Positions 22,347 to 47,078 of a DNA stretch of 64,000 nucleotides are shown here, in pieces. Position numbers and translations under genes: made by a program. Source of the stretch: Solimonas terrae (GTDB lineage Bacteria > Pseudomonadota > Gammaproteobacteria > Nevskiales > Nevskiaceae); the NCBI RefSeq assembly GCF_011067135.1, contig NZ_JAAMOW010000002.1, forward strand, positions 248,001 to 312,000, in the 5' to 3' direction. A model generated the notes under the pieces. It made no database searches, had not been told where the DNA came from, and saw only the letters and a program-made list of their open reading frames with translations. Each line of letters begins with the position of its first letter. Position 1 is the stretch's first letter.

Positions 22347-23996
22347 TCAGCAGCGCTCGAAGCGCAGCCTGCGCATGCGGTCCATGTTGAGCCAGAAGCC
22401 GCGGACCTCGCCGTCGCGGCGATCCAGCGTCAGCGTCGCCGGCAAGGGCAGGGGAAATTCCGGAATCGCACGGAATCGCCCGCAGCCGAAGACATCATCG
22501 GCAAACGCTTCCAGTTCCCAGTGCGCACCGCCGCTCATGGGCAGAAGGTCGAGCACCAGCCTGCCATCGTCGAGGCGGATTTCGACTTCCTTGGCGAACT
22601 CCGCGTGGCGATAGCGCCCGCAAGGGTTCGTGGCCAGTTCGGCGATCGCCGGTGGTATGGCGGGCAGACGCTCGAATCGTTCGAGTTCGCCGCAGATGTG
22701 CACATCGAGAACCGGTGGTGGCGCGCCATCGGTGGGCGGTTTGCGAATCTCGACGGAACTCGAAGCACCGGCCGGTCGCGCCAGCCCTGTACCGCTGGCG
22801 CGAAGCGCACCGGCCGGTGCGTGATGCACGGAAAGCAGCAGCGTTTCGGCCTGCTGCGGCTGCGGTCGCACGGCCTCGATCGACAGCAGGGTCTGCGATT
22901 CGCGGCTGAACCAGCGACCGGCCAGTGCCGGGTGATCGGCAGCCGCCGCCGGCGCGGTTTCGGCTGCGAGTCCTTCCTCGCCCAGGACGGCTTCCATTGC
23001 CTGAAGTGCAAGCACCTGCGCAGCGGCGTCCATCCGGTTGCTCATGATCACGATGTCGAGTTCGTGTGCGGGCGCGATGAGCATCTGCGATTGCGCGCCC
23101 ATCGTCGCGCCGGCGTGATGGATGATGTCGACACCGCGTAGCTGCTCGCGCATGAGGCCGAGCCCGTATCCGATCGTGGTGCCGTTGGCAAAACGCTGCG
23201 GCTCGAGCAGGCGTTTCCGGATCTCGTTGCCGAAGATGCTTTCGTCGGTGCCGCGCAGATGCGCCGTCCAGCGCAGCATGTCGTCGACGGTCGACACCAG
23301 CCCGCCGGCGCCGAGCAGATCGTCCGAAAAGAAGATGCCGCGCCGCCAGGTGTCGCCGACGGCGAGGTGCAGCGTTGCCATGCCGCGCACGATGTCGAGA
23401 TCGCTGCGCACCAGCATGGTGTTCGTCATGCCGAGCGGCGCGAGCAGGCGACGCGTCACGAAGTCGTTCCACGACAGCCCGCCGAGGCGTTCGATGATCA
23501 GCGACAGCAGTGTGTAGCCGTCGTTGTTGTAGGCCAGACGCGTACCGGGTACGAAGTTGAGACTGCGGAATTTGCGGAGAATCTGGATCGCCCCGCCCGG
23601 CGGCGTATGGCCGAAATAGCCGCCGTTTGCGAGCAGCGCCGCTGCCGACGTATCGGGCAGACCGCCGGTGTGATGCATCAGCTGCAGCAGCGTCGGCTCG
23701 CCGCAGCAATTGTCCAGCTCCGGCAGATAGGTCCGCACCGGATGGCTGATGTCGAGCTTGCCGTCCTGTTCCAGCAGCAGGATGGCCAGGCAGGTGAAGT
23801 GCTTGGTCGTCGAGCCGATGCGCATCAGCGTCGCCGGCGTGTTTGCCACCGAATGCTCGATGCTCGCGAGGCCGAAGCCGCGCCGGTAGATCAGGGCCCC
23901 GCGATGGCGAACGCCGACCACGAGTCCGGGTGCGTCGCTGCGATTGTATGGTTCGAACAGCGTGTCGAGACGCTGGCGGACGGATGGTGTGTTCAT
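22347..23996 (-). CDS. D-aminopeptidase-like serine hydrolase (S12 / class C beta-lactamase fold)
   Basis: 549 residues. The catalytic domain has MRIGSTTKHFTC with S62 and K65 (SxxK), LAYNNDG with Y156 (YxN), and IIHHAGA with H294 in place of the KTG motif. The same Ser/Lys numbering, Tyr at about 153 and HxG at about 287 are what I recall for Ochrobactrum D-aminopeptidase. A further roughly 200 C-terminal residues form antiparallel beta-barrel-like domains (DDGRLVLDLLPMSGGAHWEL, RFRAIPEFPLPLPATLTLDR), as in that enzyme. No signal peptide is seen, so it is likely cytoplasmic. It would release N-terminal D-amino acids or act on related esters or amides. It diverges from the TetR gene over twin operators. 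Esterase activity is the main alternative. Confidence 0.85.
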   Translation of the reverse strand: MNTPSVRQRLDTLFEPYNRSDAPGLVVGVRHRGALIYRRGFGLASIEHSVANTPATLMRIGSTTKHFTCLAILLLEQDGKLDISHPVRTYLPELDNCCGEPTLLQLMHHTGGLPDTSAAALLANGGYFGHTPPGGAIQILRKFRSLNFVPGTRLAYNNDGYTLLSLIIERLGGLSWNDFVTRRLLAPLGMTNTMLVRSDLDIVRGMATLHLAVGDTWRRGIFFSDDLLGAGGLVSTVDDMLRWTAHLRGTDESIFGNEIRKRLLEPQRFANGTTIGYGLGLMREQLRGVDIIHHAGATMGAQSQMLIAPAHELDIVIMSNRMDAAAQVLALQAMEAVLGEEGLAAETAPAAAADHPALAGRWFSRESQTLLSIEAVRPQPQQAETLLLSVHHAPAGALRASGTGLARPAGASSSVEIRKPPTDGAPPPVLDVHICGELERFERLPAIPPAIAELATNPCGRYRHAEFAKEVEIRLDDGRLVLDLLPMSGGAHWELEAFADDVFGCGRFRAIPEFPLPLPATLTLDRRDGEVRGFWLNMDRMRRLRFERC

Positions 23997-24020
23997 GAGG
24001 GATAGTCGGTCTTGCCGGTT

Positions 24021-24063
24021 TATGACCAGTTGGTTATATTTAGTTTACGACCAATAGGTCATA
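24021..24063. promoter_or_regulatory. Twin TetR-type operators in the divergent promoter
   Basis: Two matching 18-bp imperfect palindromes, TATGACCAGTTGGTTATA (24021-24038) and TACGACCAATAGGTCATA (24046-24063), each with GACC-N4-GGTC/T arms, 25 bp centre to centre. They fill the AT-rich gap between the D-aminopeptidase-like gene (start 23996) and the TetR gene (start 24085). They should be where that TetR protein binds, controlling itself, the receptor operon and the hydrolase. Confidence 0.75.
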
Positions 24064-24084
24064 TACGTAAACCAGGGGGCGGAA

Positions 24085-24744
24085 ATGCCGGCAGGACGGA
24101 CGGTTTCAAGCGGGTCTGCAGCACGAGCTCAGGGCGGCCGGCCACGGAAGATCGCCGAAGGCGCGCTCGTGGCGGCGGCATTGCGGGTGATGGAGCGCGA
24201 GGGATATTCGGCGCTGACCATACGTGCGCTCGCGCAGGAGCTGGGGATCAGCCATTCGACGCTCTACAACTATGTCGAGCGGATCGAAGACATCGAGGCC
24301 CAGGCGCTGCAGCAACTGACTGCGCAATTGCCGCTGCCGACCGCAACGACGGCACCCGCCCTTCGCGCGGAGTTGCTGTCCTATCTGCAGGCAGCGCTGC
24401 GCCTGTTGATGCAGCACCCGGGGGTCCTGTTTCCGCCGATCGGCACGGTCTCCTGGAAAACGCTGCATGCGATCGGCGAGCGATGGGTGCATGCGCTGAT
24501 TCCGTACGCTGCGGACGAGAAGACCACGCGTCTGGCGGTCGGCGCTCTGGTCGCGAGCGTCGTCGTCCAGGCCGAGCGCGTGCGCGTCTACGGGCCGACC
24601 GGCGTGGCGAAGCAGCTCAAGACGCTGGAAGCGCAGGGGCTGGCTTCGCTCGAGGACATTCTGGATTCGATGATGGATCTGGTCCTGCCGGCGCTGAGAC
24701 CGAGCACAGAAAACAAGCCAGGACATACGAAGGACAAGCCGTGA
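24085..24744 (+). CDS. TetR-family transcriptional regulator
   Basis: 219 residues. The N-terminal HTH spans roughly residues 20-68: GRPRKIAEGALVAAALRVME, YSALTIRALAQELGISHSTL, YNYVERIEDIEAQALQ. The C-terminal helical ligand domain is less conserved (LRAELLSYLQAALRLLMQHP). It starts behind GGGGGCGG and is preceded by two palindromic operators. Its stop overlaps the ATG of the TonB receptor gene (TGATG at 24742-24746), so repressor and receptor are made together. It most likely represses both divergent transcripts until an import-derived ligand appears. The ligand is unknown. Confidence 0.92.
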   Translation: MPAGRTVSSGSAARAQGGRPRKIAEGALVAAALRVMEREGYSALTIRALAQELGISHSTLYNYVERIEDIEAQALQQLTAQLPLPTATTAPALRAELLSYLQAALRLLMQHPGVLFPPIGTVSWKTLHAIGERWVHALIPYAADEKTTRLAVGALVASVVVQAERVRVYGPTGVAKQLKTLEAQGLASLEDILDSMMDLVLPALRPSTENKPGHTKDKP

Positions 24745-27194
24745 TGATCGAAACCCGCAAGCCACATCTGCCCGCAGCGCTGCTCGCGATCCTGCTGTTC
24801 GTTGCGCCGGCCGCGGCGCGTGCCCAGGACGCGCACGCGACGGCGGCATCGAATCCGACCACGGAGACGAGTCCGACCACGGAGTCCACCGGGACGTCGG
24901 CGGCGCCATCGGTCCAGCAGACGGATCAAGCGGCCGATCAGGCGGCCGAGCCGTCGCCGGCCGCGACCGCGGGCGACGAGCCGCTGCCGGTGATCGCGCT
25001 GCCGGCTGATCCGCCGCCTGCGGTCGCGTCGACAAGCAGCGACGCGCCTCAGCCGATCGCCGAAGTGATCGTCACCGCGACCAAGCGTGCCGAACCGGTC
25101 CGCAACATTCCGGCGACGATCGCCGTCCTGAAGGGCGCGGATCTGGAGCGCGAAGGCGTGCAGGACATCGACCAGATCGTCACGCGCGTGCCGGGCGTGA
25201 ACCTCACGGACGACGGGCAGGGGCAGGCCAAGCGCGTGACGATCCGCGGCATTTCCGCCGACGTCAATGCGAACTTCACGACCGGCACGCTGCTCGGCGA
25301 CATTCCGTTCTCCGATCCGTTCGTGCCGAAGGTGCAACTCGATCCCAATCCGTTCGACATGGCGACGGTGGAAGTGCTGAAAGGGCCGCAGGGCACGCTG
25401 TTCGGCGGTTCCGGCCTGAACGGGCTCATTCGCTATGTGCCGGAAGCGCCGCAGTTCGACGGCTTTCACGCGAAGTACTACACCCAGTACAGCGCGTATC
25501 CCGGCAATGGCGGTGACGGCTGGAGCTACGGCGCCATGGTGAACGCGCCGTTCGCCGACGACACGGCAGCTGTACGCCTGATGGGCTTTCACCGCCAGGC
25601 GCCGGGCTTCATCGACAACAGCTTCACCGGCGAGCGCGATGTCAACAGCCTGACGCAGTACGGCTTGCGCGGCATCGTCGCATGGAAGCCGAGCGAGGAT
25701 TGGAAGATCTCCCTGCTCGGGACCACGCAGAAGACGACGCAGGACGATGTTGCGTTTGCGGACAACCGCGATGGCAAGCTGCAGCGCGGCAACACGCCGC
25801 GACCGAGTCCGTCGGAGAGCATCTACAGCCTGGGCAATATCGCTGTCGAGGGCAGTCTTCCCTGGGCTGATCTCGTCTCGCAAACCTCGGTCTTCAAAAA
25901 GCAGTTCGATGTGTTCATCGACTCTTCGCGCATCGCGCTGGGCGGTCATGTGCCGCTGCTTTCTGCGGTCGACCACAGTCAGAGTCACGGTTTTTCGCAG
26001 GAGCTGCGGCTGCTGTCGGCGCCGAGCGACTCGCCCTGGAAGTGGCTGGTGGGTGCGTTCTACTTCGACACGCGTCTGAAGGATTGCGCCGAAGCGGGGG
26101 CCGCCGAGGACCTGCCCGGTCTGCCGGTTCCGTCGGTGCTTGAAGGCCTGCTCGCGAATCCTTGCCCCGGCAACGCAAACAAGCTGCAGGGCTCTCTCGA
26201 CATCGCGCAGTTGCTGGGCGATGTGGATGTACGGGAAGAAGCGCTGTTCGGTGAGCTGACGCGGGCCTTGGGCGATGACTGGGACGTGACTGTCGGCGCG
26301 CGCGGTTACCGCACGAAGTCCGGCGGCACGGTTTCGACGGCGGGGCTGCTCTATTCGGCACAGAACGCCGGCTTCCCGGCGCATCACGATGCCGACGTGT
26401 CGGAAAACGGGCTGAGCCCCAAGGCGTCGGTCGTGTTCCATCCGACGCGGGACTTCCGCACGTATTTCACGGTGTCTCGAGGCTTCCGCTTCGGCGGCCC
26501 GCAGCTGGGGGCGTCGACGCCGACGACGAATGTTCCGGCCGTCTACAAATCCGACTCGCTGTGGAACTACGAACTCGGTTTGCGCAGCGACTGGCTGGAC
26601 CGGAGCCTGCGCCTCGACGCATCGGCCTATTTCATCGACTGGAAGAATCCGCAGGTTGCGCAGATATCGAACGACAGCCTGGTCACGTTCATCGACAACG
26701 TCGGCGGCGTGAAGGGTCGCGGCGTGGATCTGAGTTTGCGCTACGCGCCGCCGTTCCTGCGTGGCCTGAGTCTCGAAACGATGGTCGCCTTCAATCGCAC
26801 CGAGACGACGGCGTCGTTCGACTCGGCATCCGGGCAGACCATTCCGCCAGGTTCTCGCTGGCCGCTGTCGCCGCACTGGCAGACTTCGACGACGCTGGCC
26901 TATGCGTTTCCCGTCGACGACTGGCTGCTGGGTGCTTCACTGCGACACACCTATATCAGCAAGGCCTGCAACACGATCGAATGCACGGCTCAGGTGTTCG
27001 GCTATCGCACGCTCGATCTGAATCTGTTCGTGAACGGCCCCGACGGCAGCTTCTGGCCGCAGCTGAGCCTGTCGCTCAACAACCTGACCGACGAACGCGG
27101 CTACAGCAACATCACGATCAGCCCGACCCTCGGTGAATCCGTGAACTACATTGCGCCGCGCGCCATCGTGCTGCGACTCGGCGGCAACTTCTGA
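24744..27194 (+). CDS. TonB-dependent outer-membrane receptor (copy 1)
   Basis: 816 residues. A signal peptide ends near AARAQ (about residue 28), followed by an Ala/Pro/Thr/Ser-rich stretch of about 80 residues before the plug, which starts near IAEVIVTATKRAEPVRNIPA. Plug motifs: ILKGADLEREG-type helix (VLKGADLEREGVQDIDQI), VPGVNLTDDGQGQAKRVTIR and VEVLKGPQGTLFGGSGLNGL. The 22-strand barrel ends in VLRLGGNF with a terminal Phe. It imports a bulky substrate by TonB energy. ATG overlaps the TetR stop; an alpha/beta hydrolase follows 11 bp downstream. It is a clear paralogue of the receptors at 48944 and 59467. The substrate may be a D-amino-acid peptide, inferred from the operon. Confidence 0.93.
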   Translation: MIETRKPHLPAALLAILLFVAPAAARAQDAHATAASNPTTETSPTTESTGTSAAPSVQQTDQAADQAAEPSPAATAGDEPLPVIALPADPPPAVASTSSDAPQPIAEVIVTATKRAEPVRNIPATIAVLKGADLEREGVQDIDQIVTRVPGVNLTDDGQGQAKRVTIRGISADVNANFTTGTLLGDIPFSDPFVPKVQLDPNPFDMATVEVLKGPQGTLFGGSGLNGLIRYVPEAPQFDGFHAKYYTQYSAYPGNGGDGWSYGAMVNAPFADDTAAVRLMGFHRQAPGFIDNSFTGERDVNSLTQYGLRGIVAWKPSEDWKISLLGTTQKTTQDDVAFADNRDGKLQRGNTPRPSPSESIYSLGNIAVEGSLPWADLVSQTSVFKKQFDVFIDSSRIALGGHVPLLSAVDHSQSHGFSQELRLLSAPSDSPWKWLVGAFYFDTRLKDCAEAGAAEDLPGLPVPSVLEGLLANPCPGNANKLQGSLDIAQLLGDVDVREEALFGELTRALGDDWDVTVGARGYRTKSGGTVSTAGLLYSAQNAGFPAHHDADVSENGLSPKASVVFHPTRDFRTYFTVSRGFRFGGPQLGASTPTTNVPAVYKSDSLWNYELGLRSDWLDRSLRLDASAYFIDWKNPQVAQISNDSLVTFIDNVGGVKGRGVDLSLRYAPPFLRGLSLETMVAFNRTETTASFDSASGQTIPPGSRWPLSPHWQTSTTLAYAFPVDDWLLGASLRHTYISKACNTIECTAQVFGYRTLDLNLFVNGPDGSFWPQLSLSLNNLTDERGYSNITISPTLGESVNYIAPRAIVLRLGGNF

Positions 27195-27205
27195 TCGAGA
27201 TCGAC

Positions 27206-28102
27206 ATGCAAGAAACCAAGATACGCGAAGGTGTCGCCGACGTGCCGGGTGCACGGCTTCGATACCGGCTTGCCGGCACGCCAGGCGCGCCGCTGCTGGT
27301 GTTCGAGAACGGCTGGGGCGCATCGTATGAAATGTGGACCTGGATAGAGCGCGAGCTGGCGCCGCATGCGCAGCTGCTGTTCTACAACCGGGCCGGCATC
27401 GGCGGCAGCGAATTGCGGGCGCCGCAGACCGTAGCCGGCCTGAGTGCGCAGTTCGCGGCATTGCCGGCCGTACTCGGGCTGCAGGGCCCCGTGATCGCGG
27501 TGGGACAGTCGTACGGCGGCCTGATGTGTTCGCTGCACGCCGCGCAGATTCCTGCGGTGCTGGAATCGGTGATCGAAATCGATCCGACCCCCGAGCGAGC
27601 GCATCCGCATGTCGATGCCGGGCTGCGCCAGATTCACAGGATCGTCGCGGTGTTGAAGCTGTGTCTGCGACTGGGTTTGCCGAACGTCGTGTTTGGTCCG
27701 GCGATGAAGAAGAGTCTGCCGGCAGCCGAAGCCGCGACGCTGCTGCGCGTGTCGCTCGGCAACGGCGCTTCGCTGGATGCGGCGCGCGAGGAGCTGGGTC
27801 TGCTGGACGACATCCGCGCGGCAATTGCGGCGGCACGGCCAGGCGATTTTCAGCGTCTGCTGATCGGCGCCGGAACGGTGTCGGAGCCGGATGGTGTCCT
27901 CGGCCGGCTTCTGGTCAACTCCGGCCTCGCGCGCAAGACGTTCGAGACCAATCAGGCGCTGCAGCGCGAGCGTACGCAGCAGGACCCGGGCTGTCGCTAC
28001 ATGAGCCTGCCGTACGACCACGGCGGGCTGGTATTCGGACACGACGGCGCACGCGCGACGGCGGCAGCGGTGCTGGCGTATCTGCGCGGCCCCCGGGCTT
28101 GA
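27206..28102 (+). CDS. Alpha/beta hydrolase (S33-like)
   Basis: 298 residues. Nucleophile elbow GQSYGG (Ser at about residue 107) and an ENGWG oxyanion segment in place of the usual HGxG (LLVFENGWGASYEMW). The likely acid is in EIDPTPERAHPH, and the His is in SLPYDHGGLVFGHDG near the C-terminus. No signal peptide. It follows the receptor gene by 11 bp and precedes the M81 peptidase gene by 27 bp, so it belongs to the TetR-led operon. Members include prolyl aminopeptidases and esterases; a role in cutting the imported compound is inferred. Confidence 0.88.
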   Translation: MQETKIREGVADVPGARLRYRLAGTPGAPLLVFENGWGASYEMWTWIERELAPHAQLLFYNRAGIGGSELRAPQTVAGLSAQFAALPAVLGLQGPVIAVGQSYGGLMCSLHAAQIPAVLESVIEIDPTPERAHPHVDAGLRQIHRIVAVLKLCLRLGLPNVVFGPAMKKSLPAAEAATLLRVSLGNGASLDAAREELGLLDDIRAAIAAARPGDFQRLLIGAGTVSEPDGVLGRLLVNSGLARKTFETNQALQRERTQQDPGCRYMSLPYDHGGLVFGHDGARATAAAVLAYLRGPRA

Positions 28103-28129
28103 AATGAAGACGCTGCGCAAGCCGGCGGA

Positions 28130-29629
28130 ATGCCGGCGATGAGGATCTACTGCGCCTTGCTGTCGTCGGAAACCAATACGGCGGCGGTGGTTCCGACCGG
28201 CGCCGCCGATTTCGAGCGCATGGACGTCCATCGTGGCGATGCGAGCGGGCGAGATCCGGCCGGGGTGGGTTCCTTCCATGCCGAGCTGAAGCGCCTCGCC
28301 GCAGCCGACGGGCATGCGGTGATCGAAGGATTGAGCGCCTACGCGCAGCCTGCCGGGCCGACGATCGCTTCGGTCTACGAACGCTATCGAGACTGGATCA
28401 TCGAGGACCTTGAGGCCGCGCTGCCGATCGACGCGGTCGTGCTGTTCCTGCACGGCGCGATGGTTGCCGACGGCTGCGACGACTGCGAGGGCGATCTGAT
28501 CGAACGCGTTCGCGGCGTGGTCGGGCCCGCCACGCCGATCGGCGTCGAGCTCGATCTGCATTGCCACCTGAGCGAGCGCATGTGTGCGCATGCGGATGTC
28601 GTCGTCTGCTACAAGGCGTATCCGCACACCGATACCCTCGAACGGCTGCAGGAGGTCTACCGGCTGATCACGAGGCAGGCGGCCGGCATGATCCGGCCGG
28701 TTGCCGCCGTGCATGATTTGCGCATGATCGGGCTGTGGCACACCACGAGCGAACCGATGGCGTCGTTCGTGAAACGCATGCAGTCGTTCGAAGGCAGCGA
28801 TGGCATCCTGTCCGTATCGCTGGGGCACGGATTTCCCTGGGGCGATGTGCCGGACTGCGGCGCCAAGCTGTGGGTGATCGCCGACGGCGACCGGGCGAAG
28901 GCGGAAAGGCTGGCACGGCAGCTGGGCGAAGAATTCTGGGCGCTGCGCTCGCAAACATCCCGGGCGCCGGTGTCGATCGACGACGCGCTGCAGCAGGCGC
29001 GAGCGGCAACTTCAGGGCCGATCGTGTTCGCCGATGTTGCCGACAACGCCGGCGGCGGTGCGATGAGTGACAGCACGTTCATCCTGCAGGCCATGCTGGA
29101 CGCCGGCATCACCGATGCCGTCATCGGCACCTTCTGGGACCTGGGCGCGGTCGCGCTGTGCCAGAGCGCAGGGGTCGGTGCCAGGCTCCAGCTGCGCATC
29201 GGCGGCAAGTGCGGCCCGCTGTCAGGGCAGCCGGTCGATGTTGCGGTCACCGTGAAATCGATCGTCCCCGATCATGCGCAGCATGCGCTCAACATGCGCT
29301 GGTTGCTCGGCACCGGCGTCTGGGTGCAGACCGACAGCGGCATCGACATCGCACTGAATACGGTGCGCTCGCAAGTCCTGTCGCGGGAGGTCTTCGAAGG
29401 CCTCGGCATCGCGTTGACGACGCGCAAGCTGATCGTCGTCAAATCCGCGCAGCACTTCCACGCCGCGTTCAGTCCGATCGCCACGCGCGTCGTCTATGTC
29501 GGCGCGCCCGGATCGGTGAGTCAGGACTTCGCCGCCATGCACTTCGTCAATCGTGACAACCGGTTCTGGCCGCGCGTGGAATTCCCGCGCGGCAGGCCCG
29601 ACGCCGCCGTTGGCGTCGACAGGTCCTAG
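28130..29629 (+). CDS. M81-family metallopeptidase (MlrC-like)
   Basis: 499 residues, the usual two-domain M81/DUF1485 architecture. The N-terminal domain carries LLSSETNTAAVVPTGAADFE, GHAVIEGLSAYAQPAGPT and the metal-binding GVELDLHCHLSERM, then VVCYKAYPHTDTLERLQEVY. The C-terminal MlrC domain has VFADVADNAGGGAMSDSTFI and AIGTFWDLGAV-like VIGTFWDLGAVALCQSAG. Zinc-dependent MlrC cleaves the Adda-D-Glu bond in linear microcystin products; most relatives are uncharacterised. The gene lies in the receptor operon directly before dgcN and dgcA, which handle D-glutamate. Start could also be the ATG at 28139. No signal peptide, so it should act in the cytoplasm. Confidence 0.9.
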   Translation: MPAMRIYCALLSSETNTAAVVPTGAADFERMDVHRGDASGRDPAGVGSFHAELKRLAAADGHAVIEGLSAYAQPAGPTIASVYERYRDWIIEDLEAALPIDAVVLFLHGAMVADGCDDCEGDLIERVRGVVGPATPIGVELDLHCHLSERMCAHADVVVCYKAYPHTDTLERLQEVYRLITRQAAGMIRPVAAVHDLRMIGLWHTTSEPMASFVKRMQSFEGSDGILSVSLGHGFPWGDVPDCGAKLWVIADGDRAKAERLARQLGEEFWALRSQTSRAPVSIDDALQQARAATSGPIVFADVADNAGGGAMSDSTFILQAMLDAGITDAVIGTFWDLGAVALCQSAGVGARLQLRIGGKCGPLSGQPVDVAVTVKSIVPDHAQHALNMRWLLGTGVWVQTDSGIDIALNTVRSQVLSREVFEGLGIALTTRKLIVVKSAQHFHAAFSPIATRVVYVGAPGSVSQDFAAMHFVNRDNRFWPRVEFPRGRPDAAVGVDRS

Positions 29630-29714
29630 TCGCGAGAACCGTTCGGTCCACCGCCATCAAGCGATCCTTCCCGGCGCAAGCCTGCAACAAGCCTTCCCCG
29701 TGAGCCATCAGACC

Positions 29715-30761
29715 ATGACCTCGTCCGCCGTCCAAGCACCCGTCGCCCGGCTCGTCCTGCGCGCGCCCTATCTGATCTTCCTCGCCGACATCCGGGAAAC
29801 AGGCTTCGCCAAGACCGGACTCGGCATTGCGCAGTGGTGTCCGGAAAAATGCGTCGGCCAGTTGCGTCTGCCGGGCTGTGCCGTCGATGCGCGGTTGCCG
29901 GACTTGGACATCGCCGCGGCCAGGGCGGCCGGTGCCAGGAGCCTGATCCTCGGTGCAGCGCCGATCGGCGGCGACATCAAGCCGAACTGGGTCGAAACGC
30001 TGTGCCGCGCGGCAGAGGCCGGTCTCGACATTGTCTCGGGTCTGCACCGGCCGTTGTCACGCATTCCCGGGCTTGCGGACGCCGCCGCCCGCGGTGGTGG
30101 CCGGCTCGTCGAAGTGCGCGTGCCGCCGCCCGACATTCCGATCGCATCCGGCCGAAAGCGCAGCGGTCTTCGGCTGCTGGCCGTCGGCACCGATTGCGCG
30201 GTCGGCAAGAAATACAGTGCGCTGTCGATTGCCCGCGAGCTTCAGCGGCGCGGCTTGCCGGCGACGTTTCGGGCGACCGGCCAGACCGGCATCATGATCG
30301 CCGGCGAAGGCATGCCGATCGACGCGGTGGTCTGCGACTTCACCGCGGGCGCGGCGGAAATCCTGTCGCCCGACAATGCGGCCGACCACTGGGACGTCAT
30401 CGAAGGGCAGGGGTCGCTGTTCCATCCGGCCTATGCCGGCGTCAGCCTTGGTCTGCTGCATGGCTCGCAAGCGGACGCCATCGTGGTCTGCCACGAAGCG
30501 GAGCGCGAGCAGATGGCGGGTTACGCCGGCTATCCGGTTCCGGATCTGCAGGATTGCATCGATCTGCATCTGCAGATGGGACGGCGGACCAATCCTTCGA
30601 TTCGCTGCGTCGGTGTCAGCATCAACACGGCGCGCTTGCCGGCCGACCGGCGGCGCGCCTATCTCGAACAATGCGCGCGGCGCACCGGCATGCCGTGCGT
30701 GGACCCGCTGGTCGAAGGTCCTGCGGCTATCGTCGATCGGATGCTCGGGGTCTGCGCATGA
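29715..30761 (+). CDS. dgcN: DgcN-type N-acetyltransferase (DUF1611)
   Basis: 348 residues. The DUF1611 hallmarks are present: an N-terminal Rossmann-like part (LLGAAPIGGDIKP-type, here LILGAAPIGGDIKPNWVETL), a central LLAVGTDCAVGKKYSALSIA P-loop-like motif, ATGQTGIMIAGEGMPIDAVV, and WDVIEGQGSLFHPAYAGVSL. The DgcN group acetylates D-glutamate in marine D-amino-acid users. GTG at 29700 is an alternative start. It follows the M81 gene by 85 bp, and its TGA overlaps the ATG of dgcA (ATGA at 30758). The dgcN-dgcA pairing supports the naming; the enzyme reaction itself is inferred from that family. Confidence 0.85.
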   Translation: MTSSAVQAPVARLVLRAPYLIFLADIRETGFAKTGLGIAQWCPEKCVGQLRLPGCAVDARLPDLDIAAARAAGARSLILGAAPIGGDIKPNWVETLCRAAEAGLDIVSGLHRPLSRIPGLADAAARGGGRLVEVRVPPPDIPIASGRKRSGLRLLAVGTDCAVGKKYSALSIARELQRRGLPATFRATGQTGIMIAGEGMPIDAVVCDFTAGAAEILSPDNAADHWDVIEGQGSLFHPAYAGVSLGLLHGSQADAIVVCHEAEREQMAGYAGYPVPDLQDCIDLHLQMGRRTNPSIRCVGVSINTARLPADRRRAYLEQCARRTGMPCVDPLVEGPAAIVDRMLGVCA

Positions 30762-31750
30762 AGCGCGAGCTGGTGCTTGGTGTCGAACGCTGGCCATGCC
30801 GGCAACCGTTCCGCATTTCCGGACAGACCTGGACGGATGCCGAAGTCGTCGTCTGCGAGATTCGCGAAGCCGGCATCAGCGGCCGCGGCGAAGCCGCCGG
30901 TGTCTACTATCGCGGCGAAGATGCGGCATCGCTGTGCTCGCAGATCGAGGCGATCGGAACGCAGATCCGCGACGGTGTCGAGCGGCAGGCCCTGCTCGAG
31001 TTGCTGCCGTCCGGCGGCGCGCGCAATGCGGTCGACTGCGCTTTGTGGGATCTGCAGGCCAGGCGCACGGCGCGCTCGGTTCGCGACCGGCTCGGCATTG
31101 CCGATGCCGGCGTCAGCACGGTCTTCACGATCGGCCTGGAAAGCACGCCGCAGGCGATGGCCGACAAGGCCGGCGCCGCGTCCGATCGGCCGAATCTGAA
31201 GATCAAGCTGGACGCGGACCGACCGGTCGAGCGCGTCGCGGCGATCCGCGCGGCGCGCCCCGATGCGCGCCTGATCGCCGACGTCAACGGTGGCTGGTCG
31301 TTCCAGCAGCTCAAGGCCTGGGCGCCGGCGTTGAGCGAGCTCGGGCTGTCGCTGCTCGAACAGCCGCTGCCGCGAGGCGGCGATGCGGAGTTGGAAGGCT
31401 ACGACGCCCCGCTGCCCTTGTTTGCCGACGAATCGTGCCTCGACCTGTCGGAACTGCCGCTGGCCGCCGAACGCTACGATGGTCTGGTCATCAAGCTCGA
31501 CAAGGCCGGCGGCCTGACGGCGGCACTGGCGCTGGCCGCGCAGGCCAGGGCCCGTCGGATGCAGCTGATGGTCGGCTGCATGGTCGCGACCTCGCTGGCG
31601 ATGGCACCGGCGCATGTGCTGGCGTCGCTGTGCGACTTCGTCGACATCGACGGTCCCCTGTTGCTGGCCAGCGATCGCGCCATTGGCCTGCGCTACGACG
31701 GCGCCAGCGTCACGGTTCCGCATTCCGGGTGCTGGGGCACTGCGGACTAG
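30758..31750 (+). CDS. dgcA: DgcA-type enolase-superfamily epimerase/racemase
   Basis: 330 residues, enolase superfamily (dipeptide-epimerase subgroup). Catalytic lysines are at K150 (LKIKLD) and K246 (VIKLDKAGG); Mg ligands D175 (IADVNGGW), E201 (LLEQPLP) and D224 (FADESCLD) are all present, so it looks active. DgcA proteins racemise N-acetyl-D-glutamate made by DgcN; L-Ala-D/L-Glu epimerase is the close alternative. It ends the TetR-led operon. Its TAG stop shares its last two bases with the first bases of a MITE-like element. Confidence 0.87.
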   Translation: MKRELVLGVERWPCRQPFRISGQTWTDAEVVVCEIREAGISGRGEAAGVYYRGEDAASLCSQIEAIGTQIRDGVERQALLELLPSGGARNAVDCALWDLQARRTARSVRDRLGIADAGVSTVFTIGLESTPQAMADKAGAASDRPNLKIKLDADRPVERVAAIRAARPDARLIADVNGGWSFQQLKAWAPALSELGLSLLEQPLPRGGDAELEGYDAPLPLFADESCLDLSELPLAAERYDGLVIKLDKAGGLTAALALAAQARARRMQLMVGCMVATSLAMAPAHVLASLCDFVDIDGPLLLASDRAIGLRYDGASVTVPHSGCWGTAD

Positions 31751-32079: not shown

Positions 32080-35061
<2,982 letters not shown>

Positions 35062-35066
35062 GCGTC

Positions 35067-36296
35067 ATGGGTCAGTACCTGTTCAAGCTGCCGGACGTCG
35101 GCGAAGGCATTGCCGAATCGGAAATCGCGACCTGGCGGGTGGCTGTCGGCGACGTGGTCGGCGAGGACCAGCCGCTGGTCGACATGCTGACCGAAAAGGC
35201 CGCGGTCGAGATTCCGTCGCCGGTCGACGGTCGCATCGTCGAACTGCGCGGCAACGCCGGCGATCGCATCGCGGTCGGCGCCGTGCTCGTCGTCATCGAC
35301 ACCGACACGGCTGCTGCGGCCGTCGCCGATGGTGGTGTGGCGGCAAGCCCGCCTTCGACATCGGCGCCACCCGTCGCCGCTGCTGAAAGACCGGCAGCGA
35401 CGGTCGCGGCACCGGCTGTTGCCGCTCGCGGCAAGTCGCAGACCTCGCCGGCGATCCGCAAGCTGGCACGCGAACTCGGCATCGACCTGCAGCAGATCAA
35501 GGGCAGCGGTCCGCGCGGCCGCGTGATGCGCGAGGACGTCCGGGCTGCGGTGGCGGCACCGACACCGACATCGGCGCGTGCCGAGCCGGATGTGCCGGCC
35601 GGGATCGAGTCGATTCCGGTCATCGGCATGCGACGGCGGATCGCCGAAGCGATGCAGCGATCGACGCAGCGCATTCCCCATTTCTCGTATGTCGAGGAAG
35701 TCGACGTCACCGAGCTCGAAGCACTGCGCGTGCATCTCAACGAGACGCAAGGCGGTGCGCGCGGCAAGCTGACGCTGCTGCCGTTCCTGATGAAGGCCAT
35801 CATCAAGCTGCGGCCGCGCTTCCCGCAGATCAATGCCAACTACGACGACGAGGCCGCCGTGCTGCATCGCCACGCGGCGGTGCACGTCGGCATCGCCACG
35901 CAGACGCCGCAGGGTCTGATGGTGCCGGTCGTGCGCAATGCGCAGACACTCGATCTCTGGGCGTCGGGCGCGGCGATCCGCCGGCTGGCCGACGCCGCGC
36001 GCAGCGGCAAGGCAAAGCGCGAGGAACTGAGCGGTTCGACCATCACCATCACCAGCCTTGGTGCGATGGGCGGCATTGCGTCGACGCCGATCATCAACGC
36101 GCCCGAAGTGGCGATCGTCGGCGTCAACAAGATGCTGCAGCGGCCGATGCTCCGCGGTGGCTCGGTCGTGCTGCGGCAGATGATGAATCTGTCGTCGTCC
36201 TTCGATCACCGCATCGTCGACGGCTATGACGCGGCCGAGTTCATACAGGCGATCAAGGGCCTGCTCGAGCATCCCGCCACGCTGTTTCTGGACTGA
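35067..36296 (+). CDS. bkdB: Branched-chain 2-oxoacid dehydrogenase E2 (dihydrolipoamide acyltransferase)
   Basis: 409 residues, three-part E2. The lipoyl domain (residues 1-75) has DVGEGIAESEIATWRV and the lipoylated Lys in MLTEKAAVEI; an Ala/Pro/Thr linker follows; the peripheral-subunit-binding domain is SPAIRKLARELGIDLQQIKG through SGPRGRVMREDV. The catalytic domain includes VIGMRRRIAEAMQRSTQRIP and the C-terminal active site SSSFDHRIVDGYDAAEF. It transfers the branched acyl group to CoA. The E3 gene (lpd) that usually completes this operon does not follow; a small LuxR gene does, so E3 must be supplied from elsewhere. Confidence 0.95.
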   Translation: MGQYLFKLPDVGEGIAESEIATWRVAVGDVVGEDQPLVDMLTEKAAVEIPSPVDGRIVELRGNAGDRIAVGAVLVVIDTDTAAAAVADGGVAASPPSTSAPPVAAAERPAATVAAPAVAARGKSQTSPAIRKLARELGIDLQQIKGSGPRGRVMREDVRAAVAAPTPTSARAEPDVPAGIESIPVIGMRRRIAEAMQRSTQRIPHFSYVEEVDVTELEALRVHLNETQGGARGKLTLLPFLMKAIIKLRPRFPQINANYDDEAAVLHRHAAVHVGIATQTPQGLMVPVVRNAQTLDLWASGAAIRRLADAARSGKAKREELSGSTITITSLGAMGGIASTPIINAPEVAIVGVNKMLQRPMLRGGSVVLRQMMNLSSSFDHRIVDGYDAAEFIQAIKGLLEHPATLFLD

Positions 36297-36810: not shown

Positions 36811-38691
36811 TCACGCGGCCGCGTCGGCGCCCCTTCGTGACGCGGCAAGCCGGCGCAGCAGTTGTTCGGGACAGCTGCGCCGCTGGCCGACACGGCGGGC
36901 GATGGCAGCCAGCAACAAGCACCATGGCGGCATGGAGCCGCCGCCGGACTCGCCGCCGAACTCGGTGCTGCCATCCGCCGCTGCCGCTTTCGGTGCAATC
37001 GTCGGCAGATCGACATACGAGCCGTTCTGTCCGACTGCGACATTGACCATGCCGAGTGGCGCGTCCGGTGCGGCATCCGGAACATCGCCGCTCGACAGTG
37101 AAATACGAATCGAATGGCCCTTGAGAAAGCGCCAATGCATCGGCCAGATGTGCACCTGCATTGCGTACGCCGTGCCCGGCGTGATCGTCTCGAGGTGATC
37201 GTTGCCGCGGTAGTGGCTGGCCTTGAGCCAGCCGGTGGCGACCTGATTGACGGTTCCGTCCGGCAGGACATCCATGATGCGCGCAACCAGATTGCCGTCG
37301 GTGGCCGAGAAGCTGACGTTCAGATGCACCTCCGTGGCGCCGGCAATGACCGTGTCTTCGGCCAGCGGCAGGCTCGTGAAGGCGAGTCGATAGGGTGCGG
37401 CGTCGGCCAGCGCCTGGTTGACGCCGCCGGGTGCGGTCCCGCTTGCCGGGTCCGAGCCGACATCCAGGGGATTCACCACCCAGGCGAGCTTGCCGCTGTC
37501 CGCGGATGTTTCGGCCGTCAGCGAGCGGTCGGCGGTGAAGTACCAGCGCGTGGTCTTTACCGCCGGTGGCGGCCAGTCCGTGAACTGCTGCCAGCCGCTG
37601 CTGTCGGCGTCATCCGGCATCTCGAAACTGGTGATCTTGCGGCGCGGCAGCGGCGCCGACGGCAGATGCTTGAGCCAGTGGTCGTACCAGGCCAGCTGAT
37701 GGGCAGTCGGCGCGAGCGTGCCGACGGCGCTGCTGCCGTCGTAGGCCGCATGTCCCCAGGGGCCCAGCAGCAGCCAGACATTGTCCTTGCGCGCCATGTA
37801 GTTTTTCGTGGTGCCGTCCTTGTAGCGATCGTTCCAGCCGTCCACGATCAGGGCCGGCACCGTGAACCGGTCCCAGCGCGGCATGACGCTGCGGTCCATC
37901 CAGAACTGGTCGTACAGCGGATGTGCGCTGTAGTCGATCAGCGTGTTGTCGAGATTGCCGATCAGTCCGCCCAGCGGATTGCTGCCGCCGATGCCGGTCA
38001 CGCCGACCGCCAGCGGCTGGTAGAGGATCGACAGATTGCGGATGCCGCCGTGGTAGATCGTCTGCTCATACCAGTCCGCGAACGACGAGTCCGGCACGAT
38101 CGCCTTGAGATGCGGCGGATGGTACGACGCGACCATGTTGGTCGTGTGCCCGCCATAGCTCGCGCCCTGCTGGCCGATGTTGCCGTCCGAAAACGCCTGC
38201 GCCGCAAACCATTCGATCAGATCGTAGTTCGCCTGCGTGGAGATCGGCCCGAACTGATCGACAGTGCCGGGCGAACTGCCGGCGCCGGGCGGATCGCAGA
38301 CGGCGACGTTGTAGCCGTGCTCCGGGAAGAAATCGTATCCGCCCTGCGCCTCGGTGACGACGTTGAGCAGGTGATAGACCTGGTAGTCGATGACGATGCC
38401 GGGAAATCTTCCGTCGACCGCGACCCCTCCGACCGCCGGCCGGAACAGCGTGCAGACGATATAGCTGTCGGCACCGCCCGGCACATGGACGGGCACATGG
38501 ACGTCTGCGGTGCGGGCCACCGAGTCGTAGTCCGCGGGGCGCTGATACGAGAAGAACGGATCGTCCAGCGCCTGTGGTGCCGCGCGGACGGAAGCCGTCA
38601 CCAACAGCAGCGCCGCGCAGCACGGCCATCCCGTTCGGCGCGGCAACCCGGCGCCGAACCTGGCCGGGACAAACCTGGCAAGCGTGGACAT
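36811..38691 (-). CDS. Secreted CocE/NonD-family hydrolase (S15-like)
   Basis: 626 residues. A signal peptide is likely (MSTLARFVPARFGAGLPRR, then CCAALLLVTASVRAAPQ). The alpha/beta domain carries VCDPPGAGSSPGTVDQFGPI, the nucleophile in GQQGASYGGHTTNMVAS (GxSYGG), VPALIVDGWNDRYKDGTTKN and LLLGPWGHAAYDGS, followed by a C-terminal jelly-roll domain (EVHLNVSFSATDGNLVARIM, WRFLKGHSIRISLSSGD). CocE-type enzymes cleave esters or X-Pro bonds. The tail (ESGGGSMPPWCLLLAAIARR) looks like a sorting segment. SD GGGGGGAG supports this start; 38712 is an alternative. It is flanked by two HTH-only LuxR genes. Confidence 0.85.
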   Translation of the reverse strand: MSTLARFVPARFGAGLPRRTGWPCCAALLLVTASVRAAPQALDDPFFSYQRPADYDSVARTADVHVPVHVPGGADSYIVCTLFRPAVGGVAVDGRFPGIVIDYQVYHLLNVVTEAQGGYDFFPEHGYNVAVCDPPGAGSSPGTVDQFGPISTQANYDLIEWFAAQAFSDGNIGQQGASYGGHTTNMVASYHPPHLKAIVPDSSFADWYEQTIYHGGIRNLSILYQPLAVGVTGIGGSNPLGGLIGNLDNTLIDYSAHPLYDQFWMDRSVMPRWDRFTVPALIVDGWNDRYKDGTTKNYMARKDNVWLLLGPWGHAAYDGSSAVGTLAPTAHQLAWYDHWLKHLPSAPLPRRKITSFEMPDDADSSGWQQFTDWPPPAVKTTRWYFTADRSLTAETSADSGKLAWVVNPLDVGSDPASGTAPGGVNQALADAAPYRLAFTSLPLAEDTVIAGATEVHLNVSFSATDGNLVARIMDVLPDGTVNQVATGWLKASHYRGNDHLETITPGTAYAMQVHIWPMHWRFLKGHSIRISLSSGDVPDAAPDAPLGMVNVAVGQNGSYVDLPTIAPKAAAADGSTEFGGESGGGSMPPWCLLLAAIARRVGQRRSCPEQLLRRLAASRRGADAAA

Positions 38692-44351: not shown

Positions 44352-47078
44352 TCACGCCAGGATGCGCAGCTTGCGCGCACGCGCGAGCGCGTCTTCCTTG
44401 GAGTAGGCGTTGAGCTTCGCGTAGAGATTCTTGACGTGCCACTTGACCGTGCCGGCCGAGACATTCAGGTCGCGCGCGATGCTTTTGACGGACAGGCCCT
44501 GGCCGAGCAACGCGAGGATTTCACCTTCGCGGGCCGACAGCGGATTGCCGGGCGCCCGCGCCGTCGTCGGCCGCGATTCCGCCTTCGCTGCCGGCGTGCC
44601 CGGCGCGGACGGGCGGAGTTCGTCGGCAGCCGACTTCAGCAGTTCCCTGGCGGCGCCGTCCGCCTCGCTCTTGAGCAGGCGCTCGATCAGCGGCAGGGCG
44701 GCGCTGCCCAGATCGGGCAGTACGCGCCGCATGTTCGTTTCGCAGGCGACGCCGAGCAGCTCCCGAGCCAGTCGCTGTGCTTCAGCGGCCTTGCCGCTGC
44801 GCAGCATCACGATCGCCCGCATCAGGCCGAGCTGGGTGGACAGCAGCCGGCGGCGATTGCGCGTGGCGGCCTCCCGTGCCGCATCGATCGTGGCCAGGCA
44901 GACCGCGACATCGTCTTCGCGGGCCAGCGCGACGGCAGCATGGGCGATCAGCGCGGCGAGCCCGATTTCGCTCCAGGCGCAGTTCTGCGCGTCACCGTGG
45001 CGGGCCGCCAGCCGGTCGAGCTGCGCCAGCAGATCGCGCACCGGCGCGCTTTGCGATTCGCCGATGGCGAGCGCCAGCTGTTCGAACAGGCTCCAGGCGA
45101 CGATGCGGTCGAGCCGTTTCCGGTAGCCGATCTCTTCGAGATGCAGCAGCGTTTCGCGGGCGGCGCGGGCATCGCCTGCCAGCCGCTGCAGACGTGCGCG
45201 CACGCGATAGGCGAACAGCACGCCGTCGGAAAAGCCGACGGCCTCGATCAGTTCGAGATAGCGATCGATGAAGTCCTGTGCCTGGTCGATGGCGCCGGTC
45301 TGGTAGAGCGCCTCCAGCAGGTAGCCCGCATAGCCGCCGGCGGCGTCGACGCCGTAGGACGTGCGCGTCAGGGCATGTTCGATGTAGTCGCTCAGCGAGT
45401 CCGTCGCCAGTTGCACGTTGCCCTGCTGCAGATGGCTGAAGCCGTTGACGATGTCGACCATCGGCCGCGGATAGTCCGGCCGTTCGCGCGTCTCGATCTG
45501 ATGGCGTTGCCGAGCCAGTTCGCGCGCGCGCTCGAAGTCGTTGGTGTACACCCTCGACAGGCTCGCCAGCTGGTTGAGCATGAACGAGTTGAAGGTGTTG
45601 ACCGGCGGGTGCCCGTGCAGCATCGGTTCGAGCATGGCAAGGCAGGCGCTGGTGTCGTCCTGTCGCAGCAGATGAAAGGCGCGCAGCAGCTGCACTTCGG
45701 TCGCCGCTTCGGCCGCGCGGGATTCGTTGTTGGCGTCGATGGCCGCGAGGTTGCGTTCGAAGTCCTCGATGCGGCTGCAGGCGAGCTGTGCCCAGGCCAG
45801 GCACAGGCTGATGTTGAGGCGTTTCTGCAGGCTTTCCGCCGGCACCGCATCGCACCACTTCAGCAGTTCCACGAAATTGGCGCCGTTGATCATGCGTCGC
45901 GCCGCGCGGTCGATCAGTTCGACGACGAAATCGACGTCGTTCGCCAGCGTTGCGTGACGCATTGCCTCCACGTGCAGCTTCTGCCCGGCAAACCAGCGGC
46001 TCGCCCGATGGTGGATGGCGCGCAGCTCCTGTTCGTCCCGCCTTTGCAGACGGCGATTGAGGAATTCGGCAAACAGCCGGTGAAAGCGATACCAGGGTTC
46101 CGCGTCGCCGGTGTCGATCGCGATCAGGAACAGGTTTTCGTTCTCGAAGCGCGCCAGATGCTCCGCCGTGCGTGTATCGCCGGTGAGCAGTTCACAGAGC
46201 TCGCGATTGAAGCGGCGGCATGCCGACACGCGAACCAGGAAATCGAGTTCCGCATCGGACAGGTGCTCGACGACGGTGGTTTCGAGATAGCGTTCCAGCG
46301 CGTCCGCACGCGACAGTGACTGCTTGCCCTCGCGTGCGAGGAACTGCTCCGGGTCCTTTTCCTTGCGCAAGGTGAAGGCCATCAGCTGCAGGCCGGCGGC
46401 CCAGCCATCGGTGATGTCGTGCAGGGTCTGTTCCTGGCTCGCGCCCAGTTGCAGGCCCTGACCTTGCAGAAAGCGATGCGTCTCGTCGCGGCTGAAACGC
46501 AACTCGGAGAATTCCAGTTCGGTGATCTCGTCGGCCGCGCGCAGGCGCGCAGTCTGCAGCGGCGGCCGCGTGCGCGAGCTGAGCACCAGATGAAAATGTC
46601 CGGGTGCGATCGCCAGCCAGCGGTCGAGCAGCTTCAGGGTGCCGAACGATGCAATGTGATGCAGATCGTCGATGACCAGATAGATCTCGTCGTCCTGGCT
46701 GCAGACGTCGTCGATCAGCGAGGCAATCAAGGGCCGCCAAGCCTTGGCGCCGGAACGCAGATAGACGTGCAGCGCTTCCTTGTCGATCGTCACGCCGGCC
46801 TGCAGCAGGCTCTCGACCAGATAGCAGGCGGCCAGGGTGTCGTTGTCGTCGACGCCGGCGTTGTACCAGCCGACCTTCGCGCCCTGCGCCAGCAGCCGGT
46901 GTCGCCATTGCGTCAGCAGCATGGTCTTGCCGCATCCGGCCGGACCCTGTACCAGCACCAGTCTGCGGCTGCGGCCGTCGTCGAGCCGCTGCAGCATGGC
47001 ATCGCGGCTCACCGGCGCATTGCCGACACGCGGGGGTGCCAGCTTGGTGCGGATCAGTGGCAGATCGCCGGTGCTCAT
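44352..47078 (-). CDS. MalT/AlkS-like LuxR-family regulator with STAND ATPase
   Basis: 908 residues. N-terminal NTPase: Walker A GPAGCGKT at residues 45-52, Walker B-like IYLVIDDLHHIASFG, then a helical arm and TPR-like repeats through the middle, and a C-terminal LuxR HTH (LSAREGEILALLGQGLSVKS, IARDLNVSAGTVKWHVKNLY). MalT and the alkane regulator AlkS share this layout; both are ATP-dependent activators triggered by a small ligand. It diverges from an acyl-CoA synthetase gene across 212 bp, with the TonB receptor next, so it probably activates that operon. The ligand is not readable. Confidence 0.93.
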   Translation of the reverse strand: MSTGDLPLIRTKLAPPRVGNAPVSRDAMLQRLDDGRSRRLVLVQGPAGCGKTMLLTQWRHRLLAQGAKVGWYNAGVDDNDTLAACYLVESLLQAGVTIDKEALHVYLRSGAKAWRPLIASLIDDVCSQDDEIYLVIDDLHHIASFGTLKLLDRWLAIAPGHFHLVLSSRTRPPLQTARLRAADEITELEFSELRFSRDETHRFLQGQGLQLGASQEQTLHDITDGWAAGLQLMAFTLRKEKDPEQFLAREGKQSLSRADALERYLETTVVEHLSDAELDFLVRVSACRRFNRELCELLTGDTRTAEHLARFENENLFLIAIDTGDAEPWYRFHRLFAEFLNRRLQRRDEQELRAIHHRASRWFAGQKLHVEAMRHATLANDVDFVVELIDRAARRMINGANFVELLKWCDAVPAESLQKRLNISLCLAWAQLACSRIEDFERNLAAIDANNESRAAEAATEVQLLRAFHLLRQDDTSACLAMLEPMLHGHPPVNTFNSFMLNQLASLSRVYTNDFERARELARQRHQIETRERPDYPRPMVDIVNGFSHLQQGNVQLATDSLSDYIEHALTRTSYGVDAAGGYAGYLLEALYQTGAIDQAQDFIDRYLELIEAVGFSDGVLFAYRVRARLQRLAGDARAARETLLHLEEIGYRKRLDRIVAWSLFEQLALAIGESQSAPVRDLLAQLDRLAARHGDAQNCAWSEIGLAALIAHAAVALAREDDVAVCLATIDAAREAATRNRRRLLSTQLGLMRAIVMLRSGKAAEAQRLARELLGVACETNMRRVLPDLGSAALPLIERLLKSEADGAARELLKSAADELRPSAPGTPAAKAESRPTTARAPGNPLSAREGEILALLGQGLSVKSIARDLNVSAGTVKWHVKNLYAKLNAYSKEDALARARKLRILA

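Follow-up and report, generated by a model that had tools for sequence, protein, structure and literature searches.

A candidate salvage locus for D-amino-acid peptides in Solimonas terrae and its relatives in other genomes

A stretch of 64,000 nucleotides from the 4.42-Mb genome of Solimonas terrae (contig NZ_JAAMOW010000002.1, positions 248,001 to 312,000; hereafter the window) carries a locus of seven intact genes encoding an S12 serine hydrolase, a TetR-family regulator, a TonB-dependent receptor, an alpha/beta hydrolase, an M81 metallopeptidase and relatives of DgcN and DgcA. As judged from its sequence, the locus appears to be a TetR-controlled salvage unit for peptides containing D-amino acids, D-glutamate (D-Glu) above all, a reading that we give a probability of roughly two in three; the broad reading, salvage of D-amino-acid peptides, is likely, and the narrow one, D-Glu, is probable. 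The uptake and salvage of D-Glu peptides had been proposed in an initial annotation of the same DNA. From that proposal, catabolism of D-amino-acid peptides is well supported, because gene neighbourhoods in other genera hold a DauA-like dehydrogenase, RidA, DgcN/DgcA, a POT permease, an M19 dipeptidase and further S12 genes, whereas D-Glu as the substrate, import through the TonB receptor and D-specificity go further than these neighbourhoods reach.

Gene content and protein families

All seven genes named in the initial annotation are real, with open frames free of internal stops and matches to Pfam and NCBIfam models. Six lie on the plus strand behind two palindromes, in the order TetR, TonB receptor, alpha/beta hydrolase, M81, DgcN-like and DgcA-like, and the S12 gene is divergent on the minus strand. 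The genes are as tightly packed as had been described: TetR and TonB overlap by 1 base and DgcN and DgcA by 4, and gaps of 11, 27 and 85 bases separate TonB from the alpha/beta hydrolase, the alpha/beta hydrolase from M81, and M81 from DgcN, respectively. The features of the locus, in window coordinates, are as follows.

22347..23996, minus strand: S12 serine hydrolase, D-aminopeptidase/MlrB-like (PF00144, Beta-lactamase, 205.9 bits; S62, K65, Y156, N158, H294)
24021..24038, no strand: palindrome, presumed operator copy 1, TATGACCAGTTGGTTATA (zero-mismatch genome search)
24046..24063, no strand: palindrome, presumed operator copy 2, TACGACCAATAGGTCATA (zero-mismatch genome search)
24085..24744, plus strand: TetR-family regulator, presumed local repressor (TetR_N PF00440, 37.5 bits)
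24744..27194, plus strand: TonB-dependent outer-membrane receptor (barrel PF00593, 100.7 bits; Plug PF07715, 62.1 bits; signal peptide by eye)
27206..28102, plus strand: alpha/beta hydrolase (Abhydrolase_1 PF00561, 33.0 bits)
28130 (or 28139)..29629, plus strand: M81 metallopeptidase, MlrC-like (DUF1485/M81 PF07364, 283.6 bits; MlrC_C, 159.5 bits)
29715..30761, plus strand: DgcN-like protein of a separate clade, presumed D-Glu N-acetyltransferase (DUF1611, 234.5 bits; NF041892)
30758..31750, plus strand: DgcA-like enolase-superfamily racemase/epimerase (MR_MLE_C, 83.9 bits; NF042940)

The five S12 residues make up the motif set of the family (SxxK in S62/K65, YxN in Y156/N158, and H294), and none of them varies when the window protein is aligned with eight relatives. 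They align with S62, K65, Y153, N155 and H287 of the Ochrobactrum D-aminopeptidase 1EI5, which bears out the catalytic residues S62/K65, Y156 and H294 and the near-identical numbering of the earlier description, and with S77, K80, Y171, N173 and H307 of an MlrB. Window-type S12 proteins, MlrB and 1EI5 group together at 98/97 in a tree with long branches in which 1EI5 occupies 47% of the columns. The top match in the Protein Data Bank (PDB) is 2QMI, the Pyrococcus enzyme Pab87, which breaks down D-amino-acid peptides according to the available part of PMC2651629; the window protein has its fold in common with both enzymes and its catalytic residues in common with the Ochrobactrum one.

The M81 protein belongs to peptidase family M81, with both domains (DUF1485 and MlrC_C) above cut-off and with E14, H108, D142, H144 and H166 aligned to the zinc-site residues of MlrC, as listed in the accessible text of PMC12474180; it scores 305.6 bits against microcystinase C (7YLQ). 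Genome searches found a single MlrC_C domain and a single DgcN in the host. No signal peptide was recognised by eye in S12, M81, DgcN or DgcA, and the alpha/beta hydrolase has only weak PDB matches.

DgcA, aligned to 1JPD, retains K148, K150, D175, E201, D224 and K246, that is, the KxK motif, the D/E/D metal ligands and the second lysine, a set that we take to be that of the enolase superfamily. As in the D-Glu pathway built on DgcN and DgcA, whose steps are named in the available portions of PMC11747546 and PMC10845958, both families are adjacent here.

Gene neighbourhoods in other genomes

Relatives of the M81 gene were sought by a protein search of 61 genomes (the host and 60 relatives), with matches in 10, and by a scan of genome contigs from which the best 80 loci were taken; together with eight fetched stretches, and less one duplicate (L031 = L027), these give 87 loci, many of them truncated by contig ends. 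A marker was counted as present on a tblastn match at E <= 1e-8, a threshold that also admits distant S12 proteins (26-28% identity in L023 and L028); the counts rest on tblastn because the gene finder chose shadow frames in several GC-rich loci. Among the 13 loci with an M81 at least 54% identical to that of the window, S12 and a DAO-type FAD enzyme are each present in 11, a TonB receptor in seven, and DgcN and DgcA in five each. The corresponding counts for the 74 loci with a less similar M81, including L039 (just under 54%, with S12, TonB and DgcA), are 3, 12, 3, 0 and 2. The enrichment at the more similar loci (Fisher, S12 9e-10, DAO 3e-6, DgcN 3e-5) supports salvage of D-amino-acid peptides.

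L023 mirrors the window locus, with S12 and a weak TetR-type frame (below the Pfam cut-off) divergent from TonB, an alpha/beta hydrolase and M81; it differs in carrying a distant S12 of a different type, a DAO and RidA, and in lacking DgcN/DgcA. Its DAO, the one compared with solved structures, is closest to the Pseudomonas aeruginosa D-arginine dehydrogenase DauA (327 bits), and RidA adjoins M81 in L023, L028 and L106. A DauA-like enzyme and RidA, as in D-amino-acid dehydrogenation of the DauA/RidA type, accompany M81 in the related locus L023 and in L028 from the same genus. In L024 and L025, an M17 aminopeptidase and a DAO on the minus strand are followed by an MFS permease, M81, a threonine-dehydratase-like enzyme, DgcN, DgcA, an asparaginase-like gene (L024 only) and two S12 genes with a further gene of the beta-lactamase fold between them. 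Stenotrophobium rhamnosiphilum, also of the Nevskiaceae, has two M81 genes, two S12 genes, two DgcN-DgcA pairs, a serine dehydratase, an amidohydrolase, an MFS permease and a DAO. TonB, MFS, S12, M81 and DgcA recur in Paucibacter sp. (L032), Mitsuaria (L058) and a metagenome-assembled genome (MAG) named Paucibacter toxinivorans (L039), and DgcN was detected in the first two. Whether M81 and the dgc pair ever occur with a TonB receptor was a point on which the initial annotation had staked its proposal, and the outcome favours it: in L025, L032 and L058, all of these genes lie together within some 20 kb. Distant M81-like genes (27-30% identical to the window protein) also stand close together in groups of three to five in L029 (G007:C6), G014:C1 and G025:C64.

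A second line of evidence comes from DgcN, which occurs in 12 of 369 genomes of the class and 68 of 398 of the phylum (the host being included in both counts). The surroundings of 50 DgcN genes outside the window were examined, comprising all 10 below the NCBI cut-off and 40 of the 70 above it. TonB and S12 lie nearby in 5/10 of the former and 0/40 of the latter (p = 1.2e-4). In a tree of 61 rows, TonB and S12 lie within 10 kb in 11, the window included, and every one of these falls into a single group of 20 rows (97/89), in which the examined places are exactly the 10 below the cut-off; the remainder, 40 rows including the solved structure 7XRJ plus the single row L145, contains no such row. 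The above-cut-off DgcN loci examined differ from the window locus both in having no TonB plus S12 nearby and in their branch of the tree.

Three Sphingomonadales plasmids carry a further form, in the order S12, DgcA, POT permease, TonB, DgcN, a membrane-like protein and S12, with POT absent in one and an M19 dipeptidase present in one. The membrane-like protein has no Pfam match, and the label 'YkvI-like', given by eye only, was not kept. Three of the eight plasmid matches listed for the window's TonB receptor adjoin an S12 match or sit in a DgcN cluster, and an MFS or POT permease is present in several related clusters. In genome G077, TonB and S12 accompany DgcN-DgcA in two clusters (L120 and L122) whose fetched stretches show no M81; one of the clusters also carries genes for an S15 peptidase, an aminotransferase and a beta-keto acid cleavage enzyme. 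Many above-cut-off DgcA genes have a neighbour of about 286 residues for which the name 'RpiR' was dropped, its first residues resembling, by eye, a D-amino-acid aminotransferase.

Several observations weigh against salvage of D-amino-acid peptides as the role of the locus. The S12 hydrolase reaches 169.6 bits on the D-aminopeptidase model PRK13128 (aligned over 19-538 of 549), far below the cut-off of 443, and M81 reaches 320.8 bits on the MlrC model NF041767, far below 999; the labels D-aminopeptidase and MlrC were accordingly rejected. The names DgcN and DgcA in the initial annotation are matched at the level of family models and are slightly too firm as given, since DgcN (452.6 bits on NF041892, full length, cut-off 480) and DgcA (387.1 bits on NF042940, cut-off 400) both stay just under the NCBI cut-offs and the DgcN clade is not that of 7XRJ. 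The M81 loci compared were chosen for their likeness to the window, and the DAO marker was drawn from loci of that set. M81 alone was rejected as a marker of D-Glu loci, 71 of the 74 less similar loci being without S12 and none having DgcN. Half of the below-cut-off DgcN clade members (5/10) have no TonB and S12 nearby, and this label changes seven times on the DgcN tree; the combination is therefore a tendency of the clade and not a strict trait. Two above-cut-off DgcN loci (L154 and L164) have a distant S12 nearby and no TonB. Pfam finds no inner-membrane permease and no DAO among the genes of the locus, and the host genome, unlike the DauA/RidA systems, yields nothing close to the L023 DAO (best E 5e-5).

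A further point against this role comes from the tree of DgcA, in which the Escherichia coli L-Ala-D/L-Glu epimerase (AEE) lies inside the classical group and the window protein outside it (with modest support), and the substrate may therefore be a dipeptide. As an alternative, DgcA could act as such an epimerase in the scavenging of peptidoglycan stem peptides (L-Ala-gamma-D-Glu-...), in keeping with the D-Glu and D-Ala of the cell wall and with scores of 270.8 bits on the epimerase model (cut-off 343) and 238.6 bits against the E. coli enzyme. However, none of the seven genes is of the amidase, LD-carboxypeptidase, NlpC/P60 or MpaA type by Pfam, a dipeptide epimerase needs no DgcN acetyltransferase, and kin clusters hold a general D-amino-acid dehydrogenase-like enzyme, so that we regard peptidoglycan scavenging as an improbable explanation. 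Still further down lies an ester, lactone or small-molecule operon of the surrounding acyl-CoA/oxygenase region, with S12 as an esterase and M81, DgcN and DgcA in unrelated roles. The S12 fold does cover esterases as well as lactamases (PDB matches), which is itself a point against D-peptide salvage, and the neighbours include acyl-CoA dehydrogenase, thiolase, Rieske oxygenase and tannase-like esterase genes; the recurrence of S12, M81, DgcN/DgcA, the DauA-like DAO and RidA together in other genera makes such an operon very unlikely.

Relation to the microcystin cluster

The MlrC model passes its cut-off in two of 397 genomes of the family of G621, giving two mlr stretches for comparison. According to the available text of PMC6256522, the mlr gene order is mlrCADBEF, with mlrE encoding a dipeptidase and mlrF a D-aminoacylase. 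In both stretches, tblastn finds a TonB receptor, an S12 in the position of MlrB, a POT permease (44-45% identical to that of the plasmids) and an M19 dipeptidase (43-44%). Genes resembling those for MlrA, D-aminoacylase and TetR were named there by eye and from the printed gene order. The mlr cluster of the Sphingomonadaceae thus has S12, M81 and TonB in common with the window locus, the two peptidases having the same catalytic residues, and POT and M19 in common with the plasmid kin. MlrB proteins score higher with window-type S12 than with plasmid S12.

Identity to the mlr proteins is 36-37% for M81 (MlrC) and about 31% for S12. The window locus lacks the MlrA that, together with MlrB, MlrC and MlrD, defines an mlr cluster, no MlrA- or POT-type gene being found among the Pfam-scanned genes in and around the locus, where no search aimed at MlrA was made. 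It is also without the M19 dipeptidase and D-aminoacylase genes and has DgcN/DgcA in their place, which in turn gave no tblastn match in the two mlr stretches. The window S12 has no evident signal peptide, whereas MlrB, whose S77 and K80 are among the residues named, is listed as periplasmic in the accessible text of PMC12474180. We read the window locus as a cousin of the mlr cluster without MlrA; neither of the two is shown to be ancestral.

This kinship lends some weight to another explanation, namely that the locus degrades a particular cyclic peptide or lipopeptide (microcystin- or nodularin-like, with gamma-linked D-Glu), with ring opening falling to the alpha/beta hydrolase, or to an enzyme from outside the locus, instead of MlrA. 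Besides the common S12, M81, TonB and (by eye) TetR-like genes and the published functions of mlrE and mlrF, it is favoured by the kin clusters in Paucibacter sp. and in the MAG named Paucibacter toxinivorans, a species that PMC8068134 describes as breaking down microcystins although it has no mlr genes. Given the lack of an MlrA-type gene among the Pfam-scanned genes, the low identity to MlrC, the unmatched DgcN/DgcA and a host genome with no tie to cyanobacteria, we consider this explanation unlikely, if the strongest of the three alternatives. The Paucibacter and Mitsuaria clusters (L032, L039 and L058) are in their own right candidates for mlr-independent microcystin breakdown.

Regulation, proposed pathway and surroundings

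For salvage of D-amino-acid peptides, the control of the locus would lie in the 88-bp gap between the divergent S12 and TetR genes, which contains both 18-bp palindromes, of the form TAYGACCNNNNGGTYATA, with starts 25 bp apart. The pattern TANGACCNNNNGGTNATA, which was derived from the two sites themselves so that its search speaks to uniqueness and not to operator function, has zero-mismatch matches in the genome at these two sites only; with one mismatch allowed, it gives seven rows against eight for the reversed control pattern. A promoter-like TTGCCG-17-TATATT at 24012-24040 overlaps copy 1. The two-operator promoter of the initial annotation is upheld in its unique palindromes and overlapping promoter-like site and not in the working of the operators. 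The pattern is absent from the 122 comparison loci searched, and its conservation is thereby not demonstrated. The unique palindromes fit a local regulator, with TetR as the presumed repressor.

On this basis, TetR bound at the two palindromes would repress transcription in both directions until a peptide or its product appears. The TonB receptor would bring the peptide into the periplasm and an inner-membrane permease encoded elsewhere would carry it into the cytoplasm, where S12 and the zinc-dependent M81 may cut at D-residues. The alpha/beta hydrolase, to judge by its family, could open or trim an ester, lactone or amide. Following the reactions of their families, DgcN would acetylate the freed D-Glu and DgcA would invert the product to N-acetyl-L-Glu. 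A second branched-chain 2-oxo acid dehydrogenase (BCKDH) is encoded next door and may belong to the locus; it could receive the branched 2-oxo acids that other residues give rise to.

32080..32580, minus strand: Lrp/AsnC regulator adjoining the BCKDH genes, possible part (PF01037, 75.6 bits)
32819..34051, plus strand: BCKDH E1 alpha, second genome copy, possible part (PF00676; second-copy clade with G004, 100/99)
34057..35061, plus strand: BCKDH E1 beta, possible part (PF02779, PF02780)
35061..36296, plus strand: BCKDH E2 acyltransferase, start not fixed, possible part (PF00198, 266.1 bits)

A second E1 alpha copy, divergent in the window, occurs in two of 11 genus members, the host (G000) and G004. 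These are also the only two of the 11 with an M81 of about 45% identity or more, and the second E1 alpha adjoins the M81 region in both (Fisher 0.018). In G004, M81, RidA, E1 alpha and E1 beta follow one another on one strand with 5-base gaps, an arrangement that connects the pathway with branched 2-oxo acids in that genome. In the window, M81 and the BCKDH genes are separated by DgcN, DgcA and the Lrp-type regulator, and the connection is only a lead.

Beyond the BCKDH genes, an S15/CocE-like hydrolase (36811-38601) adjoins them, and an S15 gene abuts DgcN in L120. The remainder of the window (1-22300 and 38000-64000) is a large catabolic region with, by Pfam, acyl-CoA dehydrogenase, thiolase, AMP-ligase, Rieske oxygenase and tannase-like esterase genes, a MalT-like LuxR regulator (44352-47078) and two further TonB receptors; more CoA-type genes were recognised by eye.

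The statement in the initial annotation that no locus with this gene set had been described agrees with our literature search, in which no published cluster of this class was found among the titles and abstract openings searched, most subscription journals lying outside that coverage. The individual parts and reactions are already known. More tentatively, and at somewhat less than even odds, the window locus may exemplify an undescribed class of clusters, extensively reshuffled among alpha-, beta- and gammaproteobacteria, that salvage D-peptides supplied through TonB receptors. Such clusters would end in one of two exchangeable modules, DgcN/DgcA or RidA with a DauA-like dehydrogenase, and would have a DgcN clade of their own and cytoplasmic S12 and M81. 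The mlr cluster would then have branched off from this class by specialisation and the gain of MlrA, and the clusters of Paucibacter would supply the missing mlr-independent route.

Peptides containing D-amino acids are a slow-to-degrade form of nitrogen in soil and water, and to our knowledge little is known about how Gram-negative bacteria take up D-peptides. The slow turnover of such nitrogen is a theme of PMC11747546, as far as its available part goes. The present comparison yields a recognisable gene set with a separate DgcN clade as its marker and points to an everyday function from which MlrB- and MlrC-type peptidases may have arisen. It also puts names to candidate genes for the breakdown of microcystin in Paucibacter, where mlr genes are lacking according to PMC8068134.

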